From Cellulophaga fucicola (GTDB taxonomy: Bacteria > Bacteroidota > Bacteroidia > Flavobacteriales > Flavobacteriaceae): a stretch of 64,000 nt of DNA. Shown here piece by piece: positions 47,351 to 59,475 of this stretch. Both the position numbers and the translations under genes were made by a program. The stretch spans positions 1,178,001 through 1,242,000 of the forward strand of contig NZ_FPIY01000001.1 of NCBI RefSeq assembly GCF_900119145.1, in the 5' to 3' direction. The notes beneath the pieces are model-generated. The model worked only from the letters and a program-made list of their open reading frames with translations. It was not told the origin of the DNA and did no database searches. Position 1 is the stretch's first letter. Every line of letters begins with the position of its first letter.

Positions 47351-50300
47351 TTAAAAATTAAGTGTAAAGTTTAAGGTAAACGTAGGAGTTGTTGGTAGAT
47401 AAAAGCTTTCTGGATCTTCATTCCATTTATTAAAGTTTATTAAGCCAATATTTCTTGCTTGTAAACTAATTCTAAAGGCATCTAATCCTGTATTTTCTAA
47501 AACTTTAGAATCAAAATTATATCCAAAAATTATTTCTTTAAATCTAATGTGCGATGCAGAGTCTATAAACTGATCTCCATATGCATAATAGTAGTACCCC
47601 GAACTTCCAACATCATTTGGTCCTGTTGGAACTCTGGGAATACTTGTTGTGTTTTCATCTCCCGGGTTTTGCCATCTATTTTCAAAATCTGAATGAATAT
47701 AAGCTGTCGTTTGTCTTCCATAATCAAGTACATTATCATTTCTAAATACGTGTCCTAATTTATAGGTTACTAATGTTCTTACATAAAAATTCTTATAACT
47801 AATATTATTTACCCATGATCCATAGTACTTAGGTGTAGTTGTACCGCTATAAACCAATGCATCTGTATTTTGTATAGGTGCCTCTTCTAAAGTACCATCT
47901 ACATCTATTCTACCATTTACATCTACTAATTGTCCATTTTCGTTTAATGTTAACGGATCTCCGTTTGCATCTAAACCAGCAGACTCAAAACTATAAATAT
48001 ATCTTAAAGGTTTACCTTCTAATGGTTGCCCTAATAAATATGTGTCTACTGTTTCTTCTGGCACATCTACTTTTGTAACTGTGTTTTTATTATGACTAAA
48101 ACGTAATGTAGTACTATATTTAAGGTCTGTTTTTTGAGCAACACTAACATTTAAGTTAACATCTACACCTTCATTTTCCATTTCACCAACATTAATTGTG
48201 GCATTATTAAACCCGTATACAGACGGAAAAGAAACTGGAGATAATAAATCTGTACTCTTTTTATAGTAATAATCTACATTACCACTTACAACATTGTTAA
48301 ACAAACCAAAATCTAAACCTAAATTAGTTACATAAACTTTTTCTAAACGTAACTCTGGGTTTTTAACATTTCTTATATAAGCAAATTCTACATCTGTAGC
48401 ATAGTGTCTTGAGTTTTCTGCAATTAAATGAGGCCCAGTAGTACGGTCTACATTGCCATTTACACCATAAGTACCTCTTAAAGAAAGGCTATTAAATATA
48501 TTTCCTTTAAAGAAATCTTCATTGTGTATATCCCATTTACCACCAACTGAATATAAAGGTATATTTCTATAATCTTTACTTGCTCCAAACAAATTGGTAT
48601 CGTCTAACCTAATACTACCTGTTACTGTATATTTATTAAGATATGTATACGCACCGTTTGCGTAATAAGACACAAACCTATTTTCTAAATAAGTAACAGA
48701 TGCTGGGTTTATTACACTTCTAGTACCACCACCACTAGCAGTAACTGGCACTCTTTCTCCAAATGCCATAGAAGCAGAAGTTAATGCTTGTGGATCAAAA
48801 CCATACAATGTATTACTATTAAAGGTGTTTTTAACCTGTCTAAGTTCATACCCTGCCAATGCCGTTACCCTATGCTTAGCATCATCAAAAGACTTATTAA
48901 AGTTTAATTGTATTCTTCCTTGTCTTGTTTTGTTGGTTCCGTTACTGTAACTATAAATACTACCTTTATTTATATGGCTTATTAAATCACCATCCTCTTC
49001 TCGTGTAAATGTATTTACAAGGTTTCTAACGTAATATGTGTTTTCATTATAAAGAGAACTCCCTTCATAATTACTCCACTCATATTGGTAAGATCCCTGA
49101 ATAGATAAGTAGTCTAATAATTTATAATCTATAGCAGTTTGTATACGCATAGAGGTACCTTCTACAGTATTGTCTTTATTATTAAACTCTTGCATTAAAT
49201 TATAGTCCCAATTATAAGGGTAACCTTCTGCTACTTTTTCCTCTTTAAACTCTTGGGCTAAACCAAAAGGTTGCACTATTTGATTTCCATTAACATCTAA
49301 TATTTTTTGATATTGATAATGGTTTCCGTAGTCCCCAGAAGACATACCATTATTTTTTTGCTTGCTAGAGGTAAAGTTAAAATCGTTAGAGATTGTTAAC
49401 TTAGGAGTTACATTAAAAACACCTCTTAAATTTGCTATTAATTGGTCCGAGTCGTTATTTTTAAAAAAGCCGTTGCTCTCATTTTTATTGTATGACACAG
49501 AACTTCTGTACATACTATTTTCGCCACCACCGCTGATTGCAAAATTGTATTGAGACCAGTAAGAGTCGTTCATAAACAAATCTTGGAACTCATTACGACT
49601 ATCTACCCCTCTTAAACCGTTAATAATACCATCTGCATCTGCTTGCGAAATTAACCCTTCATTTAATTTTAAGTATGTTTCTAAACCAGCTCTTAATGGT
49701 GGCTGATTACGGCCTTCTGGCAATAATGCCCATCCATTATCCGCCTTATGTTTTTCATACTCTAAAAAACTACTAGTAGATGCGTAGTTTAAGTCTTCTA
49801 AGTTGTTTTTAGGTGTTACAGAATAGTTTGTAGAAAACTCTATAAGAGGTTTTCTATTTTTATTTCCTTTTTTAGTTGTAATAACAATAACACCATTTGC
49901 TGCTCTAATACCCCAGATAGATGCAGCAGCGGCATCTTTTAAAACTGTAATATCTTTTACATCGTTAGGGTTAATAGATTCTAATCCTTGAGATATAGGA
50001 AAACCATCTACCACTACTAATGGCGTAGCACTTACTTGTAAAGAACCAATACCTCTAATTACCGGACCATCTGCATCATCAAATAAAAGACCAGATAATT
50101 CCCCTTCAATTTTAGATAAAATATCCTGAGAAATTTTAGTCTCTAAAACTTTGGAGTCTACCTTATCAAAAGAACCTGTAGCTCTTTCTTTAGATATTTT
50201 TTGGTATCCTGTACTTAAAACTACTTCATCTAATTGTGTTGCATTTCTTAACAATACTGCATCTATAACAGTAGCATCTGTTACTTCTTGTTCTATAGCC

Positions 50301-50854
50301 TCAAAACCAACATAAGAAAAACTTATTACATCTCCTTTAGCTGCGTTTATACTATATAAACCATCAAAATCTGTGTATGTTCCTTTTTTAGTTCCTTTTA
50401 CTAAAACCGTAACACCCAATAATGGCACACCGTTTACATCTGTAATTTTACCTGTAATTTTTTGCTGTATTGTAAAACTAGATCTTTTGGGACTTATAAT
50501 TATTGTATTGTTCTTTGTTAAAGAAAAATCATATCCTTCCACATTAAAACAATTATTTAATAACTCATTGGTTTTTATACTCCCTCTTTTTACTGTTAAG
50601 AAAGGAAAACCCTTAAATAAGTCTTCGTGGTACAGAAAAGTATAATCTGTCTGAGTTCTTATAATATTAAAAACCTCATCAACAGAAATTACTTTATCGG
50701 CATCTATATAGACTTTTGCTGTCTGAGAAAAAACCTCATTGGACGAAAAACTAAATACGGTTGTACAAAATAGAAACAGAAATATTCTCATAATAAACTT
50801 CAAGACACCTGCTCTCTTGCGAAAGTAAATGGAGTTAATAACTTTTATTTTCAT
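47351..50854 (-). CDS. SusC/RagA family TonB-linked outer-membrane transporter with STN signalling domain
   Basis: 1167 residues. After a signal peptide that ends near 44 comes an STN domain (~45-122; KVYIDADKVISVDEVFNIIR), as in transducers that talk to FecR. It is followed by a carboxypeptidase-regulatory-like beta domain (~132-200), a TonB plug with LDEVVLSTGYQKISKERATGS, DGFPISQGLESINPNDVKDI and AAASIWGIRAANGVIVITTK, and a long 22-strand barrel ending in TFTLNFTLNF. It imports substrate with TonB energy and, with FecR/FecI, senses it. SusD follows 12 nt downstream. Confidence 0.95.
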   Translation of the reverse strand: MKIKVINSIYFRKRAGVLKFIMRIFLFLFCTTVFSFSSNEVFSQTAKVYIDADKVISVDEVFNIIRTQTDYTFLYHEDLFKGFPFLTVKRGSIKTNELLNNCFNVEGYDFSLTKNNTIIISPKRSSFTIQQKITGKITDVNGVPLLGVTVLVKGTKKGTYTDFDGLYSINAAKGDVISFSYVGFEAIEQEVTDATVIDAVLLRNATQLDEVVLSTGYQKISKERATGSFDKVDSKVLETKISQDILSKIEGELSGLLFDDADGPVIRGIGSLQVSATPLVVVDGFPISQGLESINPNDVKDITVLKDAAAASIWGIRAANGVIVITTKKGNKNRKPLIEFSTNYSVTPKNNLEDLNYASTSSFLEYEKHKADNGWALLPEGRNQPPLRAGLETYLKLNEGLISQADADGIINGLRGVDSRNEFQDLFMNDSYWSQYNFAISGGGENSMYRSSVSYNKNESNGFFKNNDSDQLIANLRGVFNVTPKLTISNDFNFTSSKQKNNGMSSGDYGNHYQYQKILDVNGNQIVQPFGLAQEFKEEKVAEGYPYNWDYNLMQEFNNKDNTVEGTSMRIQTAIDYKLLDYLSIQGSYQYEWSNYEGSSLYNENTYYVRNLVNTFTREEDGDLISHINKGSIYSYSNGTNKTRQGRIQLNFNKSFDDAKHRVTALAGYELRQVKNTFNSNTLYGFDPQALTSASMAFGERVPVTASGGGTRSVINPASVTYLENRFVSYYANGAYTYLNKYTVTGSIRLDDTNLFGASKDYRNIPLYSVGGKWDIHNEDFFKGNIFNSLSLRGTYGVNGNVDRTTGPHLIAENSRHYATDVEFAYIRNVKNPELRLEKVYVTNLGLDFGLFNNVVSGNVDYYYKKSTDLLSPVSFPSVYGFNNATINVGEMENEGVDVNLNVSVAQKTDLKYSTTLRFSHNKNTVTKVDVPEETVDTYLLGQPLEGKPLRYIYSFESAGLDANGDPLTLNENGQLVDVNGRIDVDGTLEEAPIQNTDALVYSGTTTPKYYGSWVNNISYKNFYVRTLVTYKLGHVFRNDNVLDYGRQTTAYIHSDFENRWQNPGDENTTSIPRVPTGPNDVGSSGYYYYAYGDQFIDSASHIRFKEIIFGYNFDSKVLENTGLDAFRISLQARNIGLINFNKWNEDPESFYLPTTPTFTLNFTLNF

Positions 50855-50918
50855 AAATTTGAGTTGTTAGTTGGTTAAACATTTAGTTGATTAATTAATT
50901 GATAATTTTTTTAAAGAG

Positions 50919-50952
50919 GCAGGGTCTTAACTTTCCACGGCATAGACTCTGC
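50919..50952. other. Inverted repeat in the fecR-susC intergenic region
   Basis: GCAGGGTCT (50919-50927) and AGACTCTGC (50944-50952) form a 9-bp stem with one G-U pair and a 16-nt loop. It lies 37 nt after the fecR stop and 65 nt before the susC start. It could attenuate read-through into susC or be an operator; the sequence alone cannot tell. Confidence 0.5.
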
Positions 50953-50989
50953 TCTTTTCTTTTTACTCTTTGTTGTTCTCTCTTCTTTT

Positions 50990-52162
50990 TTAATTTAAAA
51001 TTATACTTGTATTATTTATTTTATATGATGTAATAAACCCTGAATTTTTAATGGATAATAATATATCTTCTAAAGGAGAATCTTTACTTATAACCCCCAT
51101 AAATTTGGCATTTTTCACTTCCTCATTTGTAAATTCAAAATCTACATTATACCAACGAGATAAAACTCTTGTAATCTCTTCTAAAGGTTTACTTTTAAAG
51201 CTAAACACTCCGTTTTTCCAAGATGTAACATCGTAAACATCTACAATATCTTTACTATAACTTTTAGTATCTACATTAAAAGCAATTTGTTCATTTGGTT
51301 TTAATATATCACTGTTACCATTTAGCGTAAGAGCCACCTTACCCTCTACTAAAGTTGTATACACTGTATCTTCATTTGTATATGCTTTAATATTAAACTC
51401 GGTTCCTAAAACTTCTACTTCTTGGTACTTAGATAGGACTTTAAACTTACTTCCTAAGTGGTTTGTACTTGGAGACACATCAAAATAAGCTTCACCATAA
51501 ACCAATTCAACTTTTCTTGTTTTGCCTTCTGTAAAATGTTTTGGATATTTTAATTGAGATTCAGAGTTTAACCAAACTTTTGTTTCATCAGATAACTTCA
51601 CAAAATATTGTCCTCCTCTTGGTACAGTTAAATAATTGTATTCTATTGTAGCATTTGGTTTTATATTGTTATTTGTATAAACCAATTTGTTTTTAGAAGA
51701 ACTAACAGAACCGTTTTCGTATATACTATCTTTCTGCAAAACTACATCTGTACCATCTTCTAATGTTAAAATAGCTTTTTCTGTTCCAGGAGTTATTGTA
51801 TGTTCTGTTGCAACAACTTCAATTAGTTCATTTTTAGGAGCACTAGTATTAAATAAATAGTAAGCTCCTAAACTTGCAAAAACAATAAATACAGCTGCAT
51901 ACTTTAAAAAAGAAACAAACTTTTTCCTTTTTAAACCCTTATCACTATCTTTAATTAGCTGAAGCAGTTTTTCTTTTTCTTTCTCTGTCTGAAAATCTTT
52001 CATACAATAATCAACTATGTAATTTGCTTTAACATAGCTTTTAAATAATTCTTTGTTAGACTCTTCTTTTAATGCATCTAGTAACTTATCTAAATCTTTT
52101 TCTGTACTAGATTTAGATAAATATTTAGTTATAATAATTTCTATGTTTTCTGAATTTGGCAT
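50990..52162 (-). CDS. FecR family anti-sigma factor/signal transducer
   Basis: 390 residues. A cytoplasmic N-terminal region (~1-82) that would bind the sigma factor is followed by one membrane helix (~85-103) and a periplasmic FecR domain (~118-300). The latter contains TVPRGGQYFVKLSDETKVWLNSES, RKVELVYGEAYFDVSP and LGTEFNIKAYTNEDTVYTTLVEGKV. A C-terminal DUF4974/STN-like domain (~320-390) shows PLEEITRVLSRWYNVDFEF. It receives the SusC STN signal. Divergent from the sigma gene by 102 nt and upstream of susC by 135 nt. Confidence 0.95.
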   Translation of the reverse strand: MPNSENIEIIITKYLSKSSTEKDLDKLLDALKEESNKELFKSYVKANYIVDYCMKDFQTEKEKEKLLQLIKDSDKGLKRKKFVSFLKYAAVFIVFASLGAYYLFNTSAPKNELIEVVATEHTITPGTEKAILTLEDGTDVVLQKDSIYENGSVSSSKNKLVYTNNNIKPNATIEYNYLTVPRGGQYFVKLSDETKVWLNSESQLKYPKHFTEGKTRKVELVYGEAYFDVSPSTNHLGSKFKVLSKYQEVEVLGTEFNIKAYTNEDTVYTTLVEGKVALTLNGNSDILKPNEQIAFNVDTKSYSKDIVDVYDVTSWKNGVFSFKSKPLEEITRVLSRWYNVDFEFTNEEVKNAKFMGVISKDSPLEDILLSIKNSGFITSYKINNTSIILN

Positions 52163-52180
52163 TATTATGCTCTTTTTAAC

Positions 52181-52208
52181 TAATGACGCAACTATTTAAC
52201 ACTACCCC
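52181..52208 (-). promoter_or_regulatory. Possible ECF-sigma promoter for fecR
   Basis: On the minus strand GGGGTA (52208-52203) and CGTCATTA (52188-52181) are spaced by 14 nt. The CGTC core resembles ECF-sigma -10 elements and lies about 19 nt before the fecR ATG. The spacer is a little short, so this is a tentative call. Confidence 0.35.
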
Positions 52209-52264
52209 AACGTTTTTTTATTTTTTTTTTTACATTGCACTAATATTTATTAAAAAAACGAGCT

Positions 52265-52867
52265 ATGAAGATGATTTTTACTAATGAAGAAGAGCTTAAA
52301 TCCGAACTAAAAAAAGGTAATGAAAAAGCATTATCTTATTTAATGGATACCTACCACCAACCTCTATGCCTATACGTTTATAGCCTAAGTAACGACTCTG
52401 ACAGTGCCAAAGATATTGTGCAAAATATTTTTATTAGACTTTGGGAAAAACGAAATAAAACAGACGGCATTATTTCTATAAAAAGATTTTTATACAAATG
52501 CTGTTATAATGAATTTATAAATCAATATAGAAAAGATAAAAAAATTTTAGCTTTTGAAGTAGAACATGTAAATGCCCTTGAAGAACTTATTAAAGATGAA
52601 AATGAAGCTTTACTTAAAAGACAAATAGAACTACTAAAAAAAGAAATACAAAATTTACCTCCGCGTTGTAAAAAAACATTTTTACTCAGTAAAGAAGATG
52701 GACTTTCTAATATGGAAATTGCACATAAAATGGACGTTACTATAAAAACTGTAGAGGGGCAAATTACAAAAGCTTTTAAAATATTAAGATCAAAATTGGG
52801 AGACCAGATAAACCCTGTTTTATTTTTGCTTTTTAATTCCAAAAAATTTAATCCAAATATATTTTAA
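52265..52867 (+). CDS. RNA polymerase ECF sigma factor, FecI-like
   Basis: 200 residues. Sigma-70 region 2 covers about 20-90 (SLSNDSDSAKDIVQNIFIRLWEKR), and region 4 about 125-180 (LPPRCKKTFLLSKEDGLSNMEIAHKMDVTIKTVEGQITKAF). The pairing with FecR and an STN-bearing SusC gives the classic cell-surface signalling triad, with this sigma expected to activate susC-susD-tlpA. Unusually for many Bacteroidota, the sigma and FecR genes are divergent rather than in one transcript. A Met-Lys-Met start leaves a second possible ATG at 52271. Confidence 0.95.
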   Translation: MKMIFTNEEELKSELKKGNEKALSYLMDTYHQPLCLYVYSLSNDSDSAKDIVQNIFIRLWEKRNKTDGIISIKRFLYKCCYNEFINQYRKDKKILAFEVEHVNALEELIKDENEALLKRQIELLKKEIQNLPPRCKKTFLLSKEDGLSNMEIAHKMDVTIKTVEGQITKAFKILRSKLGDQINPVLFLLFNSKKFNPNIF

Positions 52868-54079: not shown

Positions 54080-54592
54080 ATGATTTATAAAATTAGAATT
54101 ATCCTAGATGCAAAGGATGATGTTTTCCGAGATATAGAAATTGAAGATAACAAAACACTAGAAGATTTTCACAATGCAATAACACAAGCCTTTGGTTTTT
54201 TAGGTAGTGAAATGGCTTCTTTTTACACTTGTGATGAAGAATGGAACCAAGATGAAGAAATTGCTCTTTTTGATATGAGTGAAAGTGGTTCTGATGTTAA
54301 ACTTATGAATGAAGTCTTTTTAGAAGATATACTTACAGAAAAAACACCTAAATTAATTTACGTGTACGACTTTTTAAGTATGTGGACTTTCTTTGTAGAA
54401 CTTGCAGACATTGTAGAAAAAGAAGATGGCTTAGCATACCCTAATGTACTGTTTAGCTTTGGAGAAATACCAGATAGCCCACCAGAAAAAAACTTTGAGG
54501 CTGACGGGCCTAAAGAAGGTGATTTTGATGATGAATTTGGTGAAGATTTAGGCAGTTATGAGGATTTAGATTTTGATGAAAATTGGAACTAA
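54080..54592 (+). CDS. Plasmid pRiA4b ORF-3-like domain protein
   Basis: 170 residues. The opening YKIRIILDAKDDVFRDIEIEDNKTLEDFHNAITQAFGF is the hallmark of the pRiA4b ORF-3-like family, with a second conserved part LIYVYDFLSMWTFFVELADI. Residues from about 135 onward are strongly acidic (Asp/Glu-rich). The family is found on plasmids, on IS1096-type elements and on many chromosomes, with no known function. Nothing mobile surrounds it here, so presence of the domain is not evidence of a transposon. Confidence 0.85.
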   Translation: MIYKIRIILDAKDDVFRDIEIEDNKTLEDFHNAITQAFGFLGSEMASFYTCDEEWNQDEEIALFDMSESGSDVKLMNEVFLEDILTEKTPKLIYVYDFLSMWTFFVELADIVEKEDGLAYPNVLFSFGEIPDSPPEKNFEADGPKEGDFDDEFGEDLGSYEDLDFDENWN

Positions 54593-54646
54593 ACTCTTAA
54601 ACGAAAAGCATATTTTTACAACAACTAATATTAAAACAATATACCA

Positions 54647-55705
54647 TTGATAAATTTATATTCTACCCAAATAGAAAGTATTTCTATACACCGTGTTGGT
54701 AATAAAAACAAAGGAGAAGGCGCTTTTTTATCTAATCAGCCTTTTACTTTAAACGATGAAACAACTGGTCTTTTAAAAGAGTATTTCTTTAAACCATTTA
54801 GAGAAAAAGAAGAAAACTACTTTAAGTTTACAAATGAGGTAGATGTAGAATTTAATGAAATATACAAATTAGCTGCAGAAATTTTTGACGCTCCAGAAAG
54901 TTGCCATGCTGTTTCTAAAAAAGTAGCAACACACTTGTTTGAGCAATCTAATCACCCACATATAAAAAGTGGAGAATTATATGTAACGCATTTAACAGAT
55001 GTATTACTAGATAACAAAAAAGTAGATGCCATTGGTATATTCAAAAGCGAGCTTAAGCACGATTTTCTACAGTTAATAGAAGATGGTGAAAATATAGACA
55101 TTAATATTCTACAGGGAATAAATATTAATAAATTAGATAAAGGTTGCTTAATTTTTAATTCTCATAAAGAAGAAGGCTACAAAGTTTTATCTGTAGATAG
55201 CAACCGTTATGACACCAAATATTGGCTAGAAAACTTTTTAGGAGTAGATGCTTTAGCTGATGAAACATTTTACACTAAAAACTACCTTAAATTCTGTCAG
55301 AATTTTGCAAAAGATGTTGTTTTACCTGCCGAAGATAAGCAACAAGAAGTTTTGTTTATGAACAAGGCTGTAAACCATTTTGCAAAAAACGATTCTTTTG
55401 AAGAAACAGACTTTTTAAACGATGTAATGGAAAACCCTGAGCTAATACCAGAGTTTAAAAATTACAAAGTAGAAAAAGGACCTAAGTTTAGTGTAGAAGA
55501 TGTATCTAACTTTAATATTGCTAACAAAGCAGTATCTGATGTCCGTAAAAAAATTAAAAATGTTATTAATTTAGATACCAACATCCAGATAAAAATGGAC
55601 TTTATAAACCCAGAGTCTGCAGAAAAATTTGTAGAAAAAGGTTGGGATGAAGAGCGCCAGATGTATTATTACCTAGTTTACTTTAATAAAGAAGAAAAAA
55701 GCTAA
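54647..55705 (+). CDS. 37-kDa nucleoid-associated protein family
   Basis: 352 residues from a TTG start, which gives the usual 'MINLYSTQIESISIHRVGN' N-terminus. Such a start is expected in flavobacterial homologues. Further motifs are KGEGAFLSNQPF, a middle portion with HLTDVLLDNKKVDAIGIFKSE, and a long helical C-terminus. This is the YejK/NdpA-type family of nucleoid-associated proteins, present in many bacteria and bound to DNA in E. coli, with an unclear role. Confidence 0.87.
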   Translation: MINLYSTQIESISIHRVGNKNKGEGAFLSNQPFTLNDETTGLLKEYFFKPFREKEENYFKFTNEVDVEFNEIYKLAAEIFDAPESCHAVSKKVATHLFEQSNHPHIKSGELYVTHLTDVLLDNKKVDAIGIFKSELKHDFLQLIEDGENIDINILQGININKLDKGCLIFNSHKEEGYKVLSVDSNRYDTKYWLENFLGVDALADETFYTKNYLKFCQNFAKDVVLPAEDKQQEVLFMNKAVNHFAKNDSFEETDFLNDVMENPELIPEFKNYKVEKGPKFSVEDVSNFNIANKAVSDVRKKIKNVINLDTNIQIKMDFINPESAEKFVEKGWDEERQMYYYLVYFNKEEKS

Positions 55706-55750: not shown

Positions 55751-55794
55751 TAATGGAGAATCGAATTAATCAATTTTAATTCTGTTCTCCATTA
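55751..55794. other. Large inverted repeat overlapping the 3' end of the kinase-like gene
   Basis: Arms TAATGGAGAA (55751-55760) and TTCTCCATTA (55785-55794) enclose an inner repeat GAATTAA / TTAATTC. The last nine codons and stop of the minus-strand gene lie inside it. It could be a terminator for either convergent gene, but T runs are weak. Confidence 0.55.
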
Positions 55795-56851
55795 TTTGTT
55801 TCATACTAACATCTTCATAATTACGCTTTACAAAATCTAAAGCTAAATCTAAAACTCTACCCATTTTTCGGCATTTTTTAAATTGCATATCTAAAGTTAA
55901 CTCATAAATCTGCTCGCGTAGCATTTTAATATTTTCTGGTGTAGAAATTGTATCTTTTTTACAAATAGCTCTTAGCTTTTTAATTCTATTACCAGAACTT
56001 TTAATTCGTTTTGCTACTATAGATCGTTCCTCTAATTTATATTGGTCTACAGAGCTTATTAAAAGTTTTTTACGAACCAATTCTACCATTTGAAAGTTTT
56101 CTTTAAAAAACTGAGGTCTATATACCTTTAATTTACCTTCAAAACATTGCTGATCAAAATCTATTGCTCTTATACGGTACACTACATGATCAAAATCATG
56201 CACAGGTACAATTACATAGTTATAAGATCTCATATCACCCAAAAGACGAATCATACAACGTTCATTAAACTTTACAAACTCTTTAGCTAGTTGTGCTTTT
56301 TCAGACTCTGTACATTTGGGTAACATATCCTTGATAAAAACATCTCCGGGAATACCAGCTATATGCTCCTCTATTAAAGTGTCTTTATACACTAAAAAGT
56401 TAAGGTTATAGGGAGATAACATATGCTCTAGCTCTAAGCCATAAATTCTAGATGCATCCGTCTTTTTTATATAGAAATACGTAAAGTTATCATTTAAAAT
56501 ATTACGTACTTTTATCCTAAAAGGCTTAGAGTTTCCAAAAGTGCAAAAATCTACAGCATCAATATTTAAGTACTGTATAATATTATCTCCACCATCAGAA
56601 AGTAAAATAGAATACACTTTTTTTAAGCTTAAATCTATCTCTACTCTATCATATTCAGAATAATAAACACGCACCCATAGTGTATCGTTATCGTCTGAGT
56701 CGTATACAACTACCGAGCCTGAAAAACGTAACAAATCTTCATAAAAAATAGGAATCTCCATTTTTCTATTATAATGTTCTAAATAAGCGTCTAATTGACT
56801 ACTTACTGGGTAAGCAGGTTTCTTTTTAGACATTAGTTTTTCCTCTGACAT
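55766..56851 (-). CDS. Uncharacterised protein with protein-kinase-like motifs
   Basis: 361 residues, no signal peptide or membrane span. I do not recognise a named family. The order of motifs looks kinase-like: beta-strand with Lys pair (YFYIKK, 129-130), a helix with Glu (GLELEHML, 138-145), a hinge-like EEHIAGIPGD, a catalytic-loop-like GDMRSYN with D206 and N211 in the D-xxxx-N spacing of HRDxxxxN, then AIDFDQ (230-234) resembling the DFG Asp. The stretch between N211 and D231 is longer than in typical kinases. The C-terminal ~100 residues are Lys/Arg-rich helices. An alternative start is Met 7. Function is inferred only. Confidence 0.55.
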   Translation of the reverse strand: MSEEKLMSKKKPAYPVSSQLDAYLEHYNRKMEIPIFYEDLLRFSGSVVVYDSDDNDTLWVRVYYSEYDRVEIDLSLKKVYSILLSDGGDNIIQYLNIDAVDFCTFGNSKPFRIKVRNILNDNFTYFYIKKTDASRIYGLELEHMLSPYNLNFLVYKDTLIEEHIAGIPGDVFIKDMLPKCTESEKAQLAKEFVKFNERCMIRLLGDMRSYNYVIVPVHDFDHVVYRIRAIDFDQQCFEGKLKVYRPQFFKENFQMVELVRKKLLISSVDQYKLEERSIVAKRIKSSGNRIKKLRAICKKDTISTPENIKMLREQIYELTLDMQFKKCRKMGRVLDLALDFVKRNYEDVSMKQIMENRIKID

Positions 56852-57021: not shown

Positions 57022-59475
57022 ATGCCTATACATCAAAAACATTTCAAATTAATCTTAGTTTTATTTGTCTGTTTTTTAAATTATTTTGGATATTCTCAAT
57101 TAAGCGATTTACACTATTTACCACCTTTAAAACAAGGAGGAAACAACCAAGCTGTTAGAGAACAGGCTGTATATTTATCTACTCCAGAAACTGCTGTTTT
57201 TACGGTAAACGTTTACCAAGGTACAATTACAACACCCATAGCCACTTTAACCCTTTCTAATGGCGCTCCTGCTACATACAACTTAACAAATGGAGATAAT
57301 GACATTACATTAGTTAAAAATGCAAATACAGGTATTGTATTAACTCAAAGTGGTTTACGTTTTGAATCTCCTGGAGGAGAAAAATTTTATGTAAACTATA
57401 GAGGTAGTTCTGGATCACAATCTACATCACTTACAAGTAAAGGTAGACAAGCAATGGGGCAAATTTTTAAATGGGGTGGTATTCCTAACCGTGGCACCCA
57501 CAACAGTTTAACAAACGCTCTAGGGATAATGGCTACTGAAGATAACACAGTAGTAAACTTATCTGGCTATGACCCAAACAGTGAGTTTAGACTAGGAAAT
57601 AATGCTGGTGGTATTACAAATGATACGTACCAAATAACTTTAAATAAAAATGAATCTTTTGTTTTTGAAGCTTACGTAAAACAAACTACAGCAAATATAG
57701 ATGGTTGGCTAGGAGCAACAATACAATCTACAAAAAACATTGTAATTAGTAATGGTGGTTTAAATATTGGAGTAAGAGTAGGAAATGCAAGCAGAGATGC
57801 TGCTATTGACCAACCAGTACCAGAAAATAAAATAGGAAAGGAATATGTTTTTATTCGTGGTAATGGTAATAATGAAACAGAAAAACCAATAATTATTGGC
57901 ACACAAAATAGTACTGCTATTTTTGTAAATGGTTCTACAACACCTATTGCTACTATAAACAACGGGGATTATTTTGAGATTCCAGAAAGCAATTATTCAA
58001 ATTCTGCATCTGGTGGCAATATGTTTGTTACAACGTCTAAAGATGCTTATGCTTACCAATCTTTAGCTGGTGGTAGTTCTATAGTTACTGTGGGCTTAAA
58101 TTTTGTTGCTCCTGTAAACTGCTTATTACCAGATAACCTAGATAACATTCCAGATATAAAAGATGCAGCTGGTATTACAATGAATGGAGGTGTTACTATT
58201 ATTGCCTCAACTTCTACTCCAGACTCAAATATTAGCGTAACAGATGGTAACGGAAATGTAACCTTACCTGCAGCATCAACTGTTACAGGCTCTCCTGACT
58301 GGAAAACATTTTATGTACCAAATTTAACAGGTAATGTATCTGTACAATCTACAGGACCTATTGCTGTTGGCTTTATAGGTTTTAATGGCGCTAGAGGTAT
58401 TGCTGGATATTTCTCTGGTTTTGATACTGTACCAGATGTAGATTTACAAGTCTCCGGTGGTGGTTGTTTACCAGGATCTATAATACAAGTAAAAGATCCT
58501 AATTTTGATGCCTACCAATGGTACCAAAATGGTACAATTGTACCTGGGGCAATATTCTCTAGTTACACTCCTAATGAAGCTGGTGATTATTTTGTTCGAG
58601 TTACAAAAGGTGGCTGTACATACGATTCTCAACCAATTGCAGCTTATTATTGTTTGCCAGATATTGTTGTTAAAAAAACAGCCGATCTAAATTCTGTTTT
58701 AGAAGGTGATATTGTTAAATTTAAAATTACAGTAGAAAGTCTTGGTGTTAATAATGTTACCAATCTTAAAATTAGAGACGTTTTACCTGCTGGTTTAACA
58801 TTGTTATCTGCTAGTCCAACAGTAGGTAGTTGGTCTGCACCGCAATGGACAATAGGTACCCTTAGTCAAGGAGAACTAGTTTCTATTATATTAGAGGTGC
58901 AAGTAGATGAACTACCCTTTAATTCTACTATAACATCTTATACCAACACAGTAACTAATACTCAAAACCAAGTAGATAGCAATACAACACCAGATGATAT
59001 GTCTGAAACACTAACTGTTGCTAATAATGAAATTATAATATCTAAAATTGCTTTAGCTGCACCAGATGGATCTTATGACAGTTTAAATGAAGAAATTAGA
59101 TATTTACTAGTGGTAACAAATAATGGTCCAAATACACTAACAAATGTAACTATTACAGATCCCATAGCAGATGCTGGTAGCATTAGTCCGACTTCTGTAG
59201 CAACACTAGCCCCTTCTAGATCAGCAAAATTTACATTAACACATAGCATAAATAATACCGATTTAAGTGCTTTATTAGTTACAAATACCGCAACAGCACA
59301 AGGAGAATTACCAAATGGGTTTAGTATATCTGATACTTCTGATGATCCAAATGAAAATGCTAATGTAGATAACAATGACGATGGGGAACCAGACGACCCT
59401 ACTATTGTAATTTTAGGAAGACCTAAAACAGTTATTACGAACAGAAAAATAACGCATAGGGTAAAACTTAACTAA
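57022..59475 (+). CDS. Large secreted protein with IgGFc-binding-like N-terminus and two DUF11-like domains
   Basis: 817 residues. Signal peptide to about residue 26. The N-terminal ~460 residues (SDLHYLPPLKQGG, ALGIMATEDNTVVNLSGYDP, VTTSKDAYAYQSLAG) resemble the IgGFc-binding-protein N-terminal fold seen in many Bacteroidota surface proteins. A CLPG/YQWYQNG PKD/Ig-like domain (~470-535) follows, then two DUF11-like beta-sandwich repeats (about 545-660 and 670-775). The C-terminus is a short basic tail (RPKTVITNRKITHRVKLN) and not the usual type A or B T9SS sorting domain. It is presumably a cell-envelope or adhesin-like protein. Confidence 0.8.
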   Translation: MPIHQKHFKLILVLFVCFLNYFGYSQLSDLHYLPPLKQGGNNQAVREQAVYLSTPETAVFTVNVYQGTITTPIATLTLSNGAPATYNLTNGDNDITLVKNANTGIVLTQSGLRFESPGGEKFYVNYRGSSGSQSTSLTSKGRQAMGQIFKWGGIPNRGTHNSLTNALGIMATEDNTVVNLSGYDPNSEFRLGNNAGGITNDTYQITLNKNESFVFEAYVKQTTANIDGWLGATIQSTKNIVISNGGLNIGVRVGNASRDAAIDQPVPENKIGKEYVFIRGNGNNETEKPIIIGTQNSTAIFVNGSTTPIATINNGDYFEIPESNYSNSASGGNMFVTTSKDAYAYQSLAGGSSIVTVGLNFVAPVNCLLPDNLDNIPDIKDAAGITMNGGVTIIASTSTPDSNISVTDGNGNVTLPAASTVTGSPDWKTFYVPNLTGNVSVQSTGPIAVGFIGFNGARGIAGYFSGFDTVPDVDLQVSGGGCLPGSIIQVKDPNFDAYQWYQNGTIVPGAIFSSYTPNEAGDYFVRVTKGGCTYDSQPIAAYYCLPDIVVKKTADLNSVLEGDIVKFKITVESLGVNNVTNLKIRDVLPAGLTLLSASPTVGSWSAPQWTIGTLSQGELVSIILEVQVDELPFNSTITSYTNTVTNTQNQVDSNTTPDDMSETLTVANNEIIISKIALAAPDGSYDSLNEEIRYLLVVTNNGPNTLTNVTITDPIADAGSISPTSVATLAPSRSAKFTLTHSINNTDLSALLVTNTATAQGELPNGFSISDTSDDPNENANVDNNDDGEPDDPTIVILGRPKTVITNRKITHRVKLN

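Follow-up and report, generated by a model that had tools for sequence, protein, structure and literature searches.

A conserved, unnamed Bacteroidota protein with a candidate protein-kinase-like active site

What kind of protein is encoded by the open reading frame of 361 amino acids on the minus strand at positions 55766-56851 of the window, our term for the whole 64,000-nucleotide stretch of Cellulophaga fucicola DNA analysed here? The initial annotation had assigned the protein no named domain and had read a series of short motifs as the active site of a protein-kinase-like (PKL) fold, allowing for a new kinase, a lipid or small-molecule phosphotransferase or a pseudokinase. All of these motifs were found at the expected residues of the minus-strand translation: YIKK, LELEH (139-143), EEHIAGIPGD (161-170), GDMRSYN (205-211) and AIDFDQ (229-234). 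Frame 1 of the plus strand contains many stops across the same interval, and no plus-strand reading frame of at least 80 amino acids overlaps it. The gene matches the 3.92 Mb host genome once, and two strains of Cellulophaga, at 97 and 95% identity, are its closest named relatives at the protein level. No signal peptide was apparent by eye in the 361-residue protein. The features discussed below are collected in Table 1.

Homologues were gathered from 130 + 65 loci and reduced to 173 distinct sequences; a locus with a masked interruption, a fragments-only locus, the window genome's own copies and identical sequences were left out. From these 173, 41 representatives that are mutually less than 70% identical were chosen, the other 40 sharing 38-70% identity with the window protein. 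The 173 sequences were also extended to 238 rows by adding 65 rows, in part repeats of loci that were present before. Thirty-eight positions were invariant across the 41 representatives, including K129, E142, E161, H163, G166, D206, N211, D231, F232, D233, Q234, Q235, Y244, P246 and N252. E142, E161, H163, D206, N211 and every residue from D231 to Q235 were each retained in 173/173 homologues, so that the free variation of D206, N211 and D231 that had been named as an argument against the kinase-like reading did not occur. K129 was present in 172 of the 173, and its sole change came from a contig labelled coverage 3 (L037). The initial annotation had offered K129 and K130 jointly as the ATP lysine; K129 stood, and K130 was variable (lysine in 128 of 173). 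Both E140 and E142 lie in the predicted helix 133-145, and either may pair with K129; the fully invariant one is E142 and not the proposed E140 (169/173). Within the catalytic-loop candidate, S209 and Y210 were kept in 146 and 156 of the 173 sequences. D206, N211, D231, D233 and E142 were found in all 238 rows of the larger set, and K129 and Q235 in 237 each. The dN/dS values (NG86) were 0.028, 0.026 and 0.046 against three relatives (L001, L002 and L003, respectively), and dS was not computable for four remoter ones. This conservation, together with synonymous change far in excess of amino-acid change, indicates a genuine and ancient gene on which strong purifying selection acts.

Table 1. 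Features of the gene and its protein in window coordinates (residue numbers refer to the 361-residue protein)
Feature	Position	Strand	Basis
Whole gene, 361 aa	55766..56851	-	ORF list, translation, genome scan
Residues 1-94, N-terminal extension; K11, R29, W59 and Y80 invariant in representatives	56570..56851	-	alignment, model
Residues 66-84, predicted helix ahead of the N-lobe sheet	within 56570..56851	-	model
Residues 103-112, CTFGNSKPFR, candidate nucleotide-binding loop in the turn that joins predicted strands 1 and 2; C103, N107, P110 and R112 in 173/173	56516..56545	-	alignment, models
Residues 127-130, YIKK, strand 3; K129 candidate ATP lysine, K130 variable	56462..56473	-	alignment, model
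Residues 133-147, ASRIYGLELEHMLSP, helix C as predicted, carrying E142, before strand 4; S146-P147 in 173/173	56411..56455	-	alignment, models
Residues 159-170, LIEEHIAGIPGD, strand 5 and hinge; E161, H163, G166 and P168 in 173/173	56342..56377	-	alignment, models
Residues 203-211, LLGDMRSYN, candidate catalytic loop with D206 as possible base and N211 as possible Mg ligand	56219..56245	-	alignment, model
Residues 212-230, predicted strands 7 and 8, long hairpin; D219 in 172/173	56162..56218	-	alignment, models
Residues 231-235, DFDQQ, DFG-equivalent candidate; all five in 173/173	56147..56161	-	alignment
Residues 236-252, after DFD; Y244, P246 and N252 invariant in representatives; low model confidence	56096..56146	-	alignment, model
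Residues 253-361 with the stop codon, C-terminus predicted as helical; Q270, L311 and M330 invariant in representatives	55766..56095	-	alignment, model

The motif set departs from that of classical kinases at several points. L204, invariant in 173/173 sequences, occupies the place of the HxD histidine (H164), and the His-Arg of the Ser/Thr kinase HRD motif is absent, GDxxxxN being present instead. DFD replaces DFG, no activation segment is visible by eye, and the turn between strands 1 and 2 carries G106 (170/173) without a classical GxGxxG loop. The catalytic loop of some deep lineages is LLGDMHSGNF, which we take to resemble the GDxHxGN of APH and ABC1 kinases. The PKL catalogue of Kannan et al. 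2007 (PMC1821047) counts six catalytic residues among its ten key ones and states that all but one of the ten have been lost in some family. Our family offers candidates for all six catalytic residues (G52, K72, E91, D166, N171 and D184), those for K72, D166, N171 and D184 being clear and those for E91 and G52 likely. It differs from that catalogue in the leucine at H164 and in having no histidine at the place that spacing would give to H158 (PMC1821047).

Two AlphaFold2 models were built from alignments of the window protein with loci 82-97% identical to it. Model 1, from 61 close homologues, had a mean pLDDT of 50.7 and a pTM of 0.42; model 2, covering residues 55-347 with 75 sequences, had a pLDDT of 53.9 and a pTM of 0.37. 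The two are not mutually independent, the protein and most of the aligned sequences being common to both. Both fell below a pLDDT of 50 over about residues 183-279, the segment that holds D206, N211 and D231, and over parts of 133-150 and 162-177. Both predicted strands 95-103, 111-117 and 122-130, helix 133-145 and strands 152-155 and 158-163, followed by helices 169-179 and 182-204/206 and strands 211-219 and 222-230. This succession of strands and helices is that of a kinase domain. In both low-confidence models K129 ends strand 122-130, E142 lies in helix 133-145 and E161-H163 end strand 158-163; D206 is located at or just past helix 182-204/206, strand 211-219 begins with N211, and D231 directly follows strand 222-230, these last three residues at a pLDDT below 50. 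K129, E142, E161-H163, D206, N211 and D231 would accordingly be candidates for the places of kinase Lys72, Glu91, hinge, Asp166, Asn171 and Asp184.

When the models were used for fold searches, all 50 Foldseek matches listed for each model were kinases, mostly protein kinases (out of 1668 and 1711, respectively, at E values no higher than 10), with best E values of 0.04 for model 1 and 0.0073 for model 2 and none below 0.001 among the matches listed. VIA-align placed ethanolamine/choline kinases first and APH(2'') next, matching mainly the N-lobe, and 49 of the 50 matches listed for each model had a kinase fold, the exception being 6l77. Its best scores were Z 7.0 (rmsd 3.3 over 100 residues) for model 1 and Z 7.3 (3.4 over 94 residues) for model 2, and a Z below 8 may reflect merely a common arrangement. 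Because of these Z values, the great number of kinases in the PDB and the running of the searches without a control model, the results may be taken as support for a kinase fold and not as proof of it. The structural side of the initial reading was thus supported in part: the motifs fell on the expected elements and the fold searches listed kinases, but a complete two-lobed fold was not obtained, residues 183-279 staying below a pLDDT of 50.

The statement that the protein has no named domain held throughout, as Pfam, NCBIfam, PHROGs, PADLOC and the sequences of the PDB gave no identification. Searches of the four family libraries with the window protein and the 41 representatives yielded weak, scattered matches on which the members did not agree. 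The best family match of the window protein was Utp25_C (E 0.0048), whose 17 bits lie below the cut-off of 32.8, and the best of any member was a PADLOC CARF model, matched by 1 of 41 at E 0.00039. The families listed for the representatives included no kinase by name (25 of the 28 Pfam families were listed, and 25 of 31 in another search). At E values up to 10, neither the window protein nor the family profiles A2 and A3 matched a PDB sequence. Five deep members were searched singly against the PDB. One of them (L178) had as its best match 7cy2, an ABC1 family protein, at E 0.07, and the two aligned in register and without a gap between the hinge (TLIEEHIIGIPAD) and the catalytic loop (GDMHAGNFVI), both included; one match at E 0.07 in five such searches is not very unlikely by chance. 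No kinase was found with the other four.

Comparison sets for four kinase families were taken from Bacteroidota: APH (28 of 30 loci), ABC1 (the strong 15 of 30), HipA (30) and CotH (30). In profile-profile comparisons, all four families scored within the range of 19, and later 32, control alignments, several of the 13 added controls apparently repeating earlier control families under a second name. The APH profile reached 20.1 against 23.8 for the best control, and with the enlarged family alignment the APH, ABC1, HipA and CotH comparisons ranked 11, 19, 24 and 35 of 36. In the APH alignment, which was not significant, GDMRSYN and IDFDQ landed on the APH catalytic loop and DFG, respectively; the full-length alignments with ABC1, HipA and CotH were out of register. 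When only the block 150-245 was used, the alignments with APH, ABC1 (hinge and loop) and HipA coincided with the catalytic loop, unlike that with CotH. The four profiles were also run by hmmsearch against the 238 family rows and 260 control proteins, one of which looks kinase-like. With ABC1, 43 of the 223 rows that received a score lay above the 95th percentile of the controls, the five best being out of register; APH, HipA and CotH showed no convincing excess over the controls, and their best matches were out of register. Taken together, these sequence comparisons do not prove kinship.

By profile match the protein was accordingly not assigned to APH (PF01636), which is missing from the Pfam families listed (25 of 28) and whose own profile was not above the controls, nor to ABC1/UbiB (PF03109), likewise missing from that listing and not above the controls in the profile-profile comparison. 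HipA (PF07804) and CotH (PF08757) were set aside because Pfam (25 of 28 families listed), profile-profile comparison and hmmsearch all gave no convincing match. Likenesses to some of these families were nevertheless observed. Choline/ethanolamine kinases and APH head the VIA-align results, mainly by the N-lobe, and APH agrees with our family in the register of the catalytic loop and DFG with its profile and lacks the HRD arginine as well. An acidic residue replaces the DFG glycine both here and in choline kinase, where the catalogue gives E186 (PMC1821047). Set against this are the want of a significant sequence or profile match and the leucine at the HxD histidine. ABC1/UbiB/ADCK proteins share the ungapped hinge and catalytic loop of 7cy2 with one deep member, whereas only one of the five members has such a PDB match. 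HipA has a D-x4-N in common with the family, but its set carries a DDHxKN loop that is missing here. The distance from N211 to D231, which the initial annotation had regarded as a mark setting the protein apart, was 19-21 residues in 238/238 rows, compared with 13-17 in APH (10 of 28 sequences fitting the search pattern), 13 in ABC1 (13 of 15) and 17-19 in HipA (27 of 30); the pattern fitted 0/30 CotH sequences. By this measure the gap is long but hardly longer than that of HipA, and it does not serve as a distinguishing mark.

We consider that the protein is probably an active PKL-fold enzyme that founds its own Bacteroidota family and most likely phosphorylates a small molecule, in contrast to a classical Ser/Thr kinase. 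Of the parts of this reading, the fold is highly likely, ATP-dependent transfer is likely, and a small-molecule substrate is favoured on balance. The ATP phosphates would be bound by K129 of strand 3 and E142 of helix C, and magnesium by N211 and D231 together with D233; residues 161-168 would make up the hinge, and D206 would act as the catalytic base. The target would be a small molecule or metabolite, as with aminoglycoside/choline-type kinases. A position nearer to small-molecule kinases than to Ser/Thr kinases is the best reading because HRD is absent, DFD is acidic, the hinge is like that of ABC1 proteins and no activation segment is seen by eye. The explanation as a whole is supported by the invariant residues, purifying selection, the order of the motifs and their placement in the low-confidence models, and further by the rarity of the motif pattern in the randomization tests given below, the kinases listed by the fold searches, the 7cy2 match of one deep member and the register of the non-significant APH alignment. 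The low pLDDT at D206, N211 and D231, the lack of a listed Foldseek match with E below 0.001, profile scores within the controls, L204 in place of the HxD histidine, the absence of GxGxxG and the four of five deep members without a PDB kinase count against it. Overall, the initial observation holds, and the kinase-like reading built on it is supported in part.

Four other explanations were weighed. An atypical protein kinase, HipA-like or other, would have the same fold and active site with a protein side chain as its substrate. Among the sets measured HipA has the nearest N-to-D distance, protein kinases make up most of the Foldseek matches listed, though they are very numerous in the PDB, and the gene is mostly single-copy and chromosomal. 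We nevertheless find this explanation unlikely, since the HipA_C profile does not match, HRD is absent, no activation segment is visible by eye and VIA-align puts choline kinases and APH first. The same ATP site could also serve another chemistry, such as AMPylation (SelO-like) or glutamylation. Kinase-fold enzymes with chemistry of this type exist, and the invariant DFDQQ and unusual catalytic loop would be in keeping with one; this is very unlikely, however, because K/E/D/N/D is the ordinary phosphotransfer residue set and a specific sign of the other chemistry is absent.

The low model confidence and the lack of a significant profile or PDB match would suit an altogether different fold, that of some other Mg-dependent alpha/beta enzyme in which conserved acidic residues happen to mimic the order seen in kinases. 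The kinase-like secondary-structure order and motif placement in the two models (not mutually independent) and the kinases listed by the fold searches argue against such a fold. So do two randomization tests, both framed after the motif was known: the pattern K-E-DxxxxN-D with kinase-like spacing arose in 608 of 200,000 trials when labels were shuffled among the 38 invariant positions, and in 127 of 200,000 when positions were placed at random. We therefore regard a non-kinase fold as quite unlikely. The pseudokinase allowed for at the outset, or a scaffold, draws on the fact that enzyme activity is so far only predicted; with all catalytic residues retained and invariant in 41/41 representatives, and the only K129 change in the coverage-3 contig, it is highly improbable.

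The protein probably belongs to a kind of enzyme already known but forms a new family within it. We tentatively suggest, as a possibility short of an expectation, that it is the founding member of an unrecognised PKL family, widespread in Bacteroidota and without a relative in the phage, plasmid and viral collections, whose conserved reaction, a phosphorylation in metabolism or some other modification that uses ATP, would be new to these bacteria, possibly tied to low-molecular-weight thiol chemistry where the gene directly follows bshA. A kinase-type active site that is invariant down to 38% identity across a phylum and unrecognised by four family libraries would, if true, mean a new enzyme family in many bacteria. 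Since the family has no name to look for in the literature, silence there is weak evidence of novelty. The gene is a concrete target, being usually single-copy and chromosomal with mutable sites (K129, D206 and D231) defined in advance.

The gene is patchily distributed. It was matched in 59 of 100 genomes of relatives, in 99 of 395 genomes drawn across the phylum (including G343, with decayed-looking fragments only) and in 111 of 345 drawn across the class (including the G343 fragments, a weak fragment in G732 and two contig-end pieces). Apart from such pieces, carriers had one copy each, the exception being G189 with two, and matches were either very strong or absent, leaving no trail of distant relatives. 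The two copies in G189 are L171 and L172, the latter with His for D219. The locus in G343 (L185) consists of gene fragments with stops, and two family-mates in the phylum sample have an intact match. It is, on its sequence, apparently a decayed copy, which indicates that the gene can be lost. No relative of the gene was found among viral contigs, plasmids and phages. BshC occurs in 384/395 phylum genomes, so that its co-occurrence with the gene is uninformative, and COX1 in 327/345 class genomes, so that the gene's presence does not simply follow the COX1 oxidase; neither explains the patchy distribution.

A scan of genome contigs found 386 relatives, of which the best 80 were taken. Across 79 loci the widest neighbour cluster spanned 7 family labels at inconsistent positions. 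Thirteen loci from the 28 carriers outside the class in the phylum sample were examined. In six of these (L170, L173, L174, L177, L179 and L184; four family labels), the gene for the bacillithiol glycosyltransferase BshA lies directly upstream on the same strand. NCBIfam TIGR03999 confirmed BshA for L170 and L184, and the other four BshA genes are 74-81% identical to one of these two. The end of the BshA gene falls anywhere from about 87 bases ahead of the mechanically called start of the homologue to 4 bases within it, and the two genes possibly form an operon; as a clue to function, this neighbourhood is a weak lead. In three loci that share one family label (L165, L167 and L190), a class II fructose-bisphosphate aldolase-like gene was noted by eye downstream on the same strand.

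In the window itself the gene is unaccompanied, with a divergent neighbour at 57022-59475 (+) and a convergent one at 54647-55705 (+), and its neighbours reappear mainly near homologues of close relatives. The genes at 54080-55705, which had no NCBIfam match at E 1e-5, were named by eye as pRiA4b ORF-3-like and NdpA-like, and this pair adjoins the gene again mainly in the Cellulophaga/Maribacter group. Farther away, at 47351-52867, adjacent genes for a SusC-like TonB receptor, a FecR-like anti-sigma factor and an ECF sigma factor, also named by eye, make up an ordinary Bacteroidota set.
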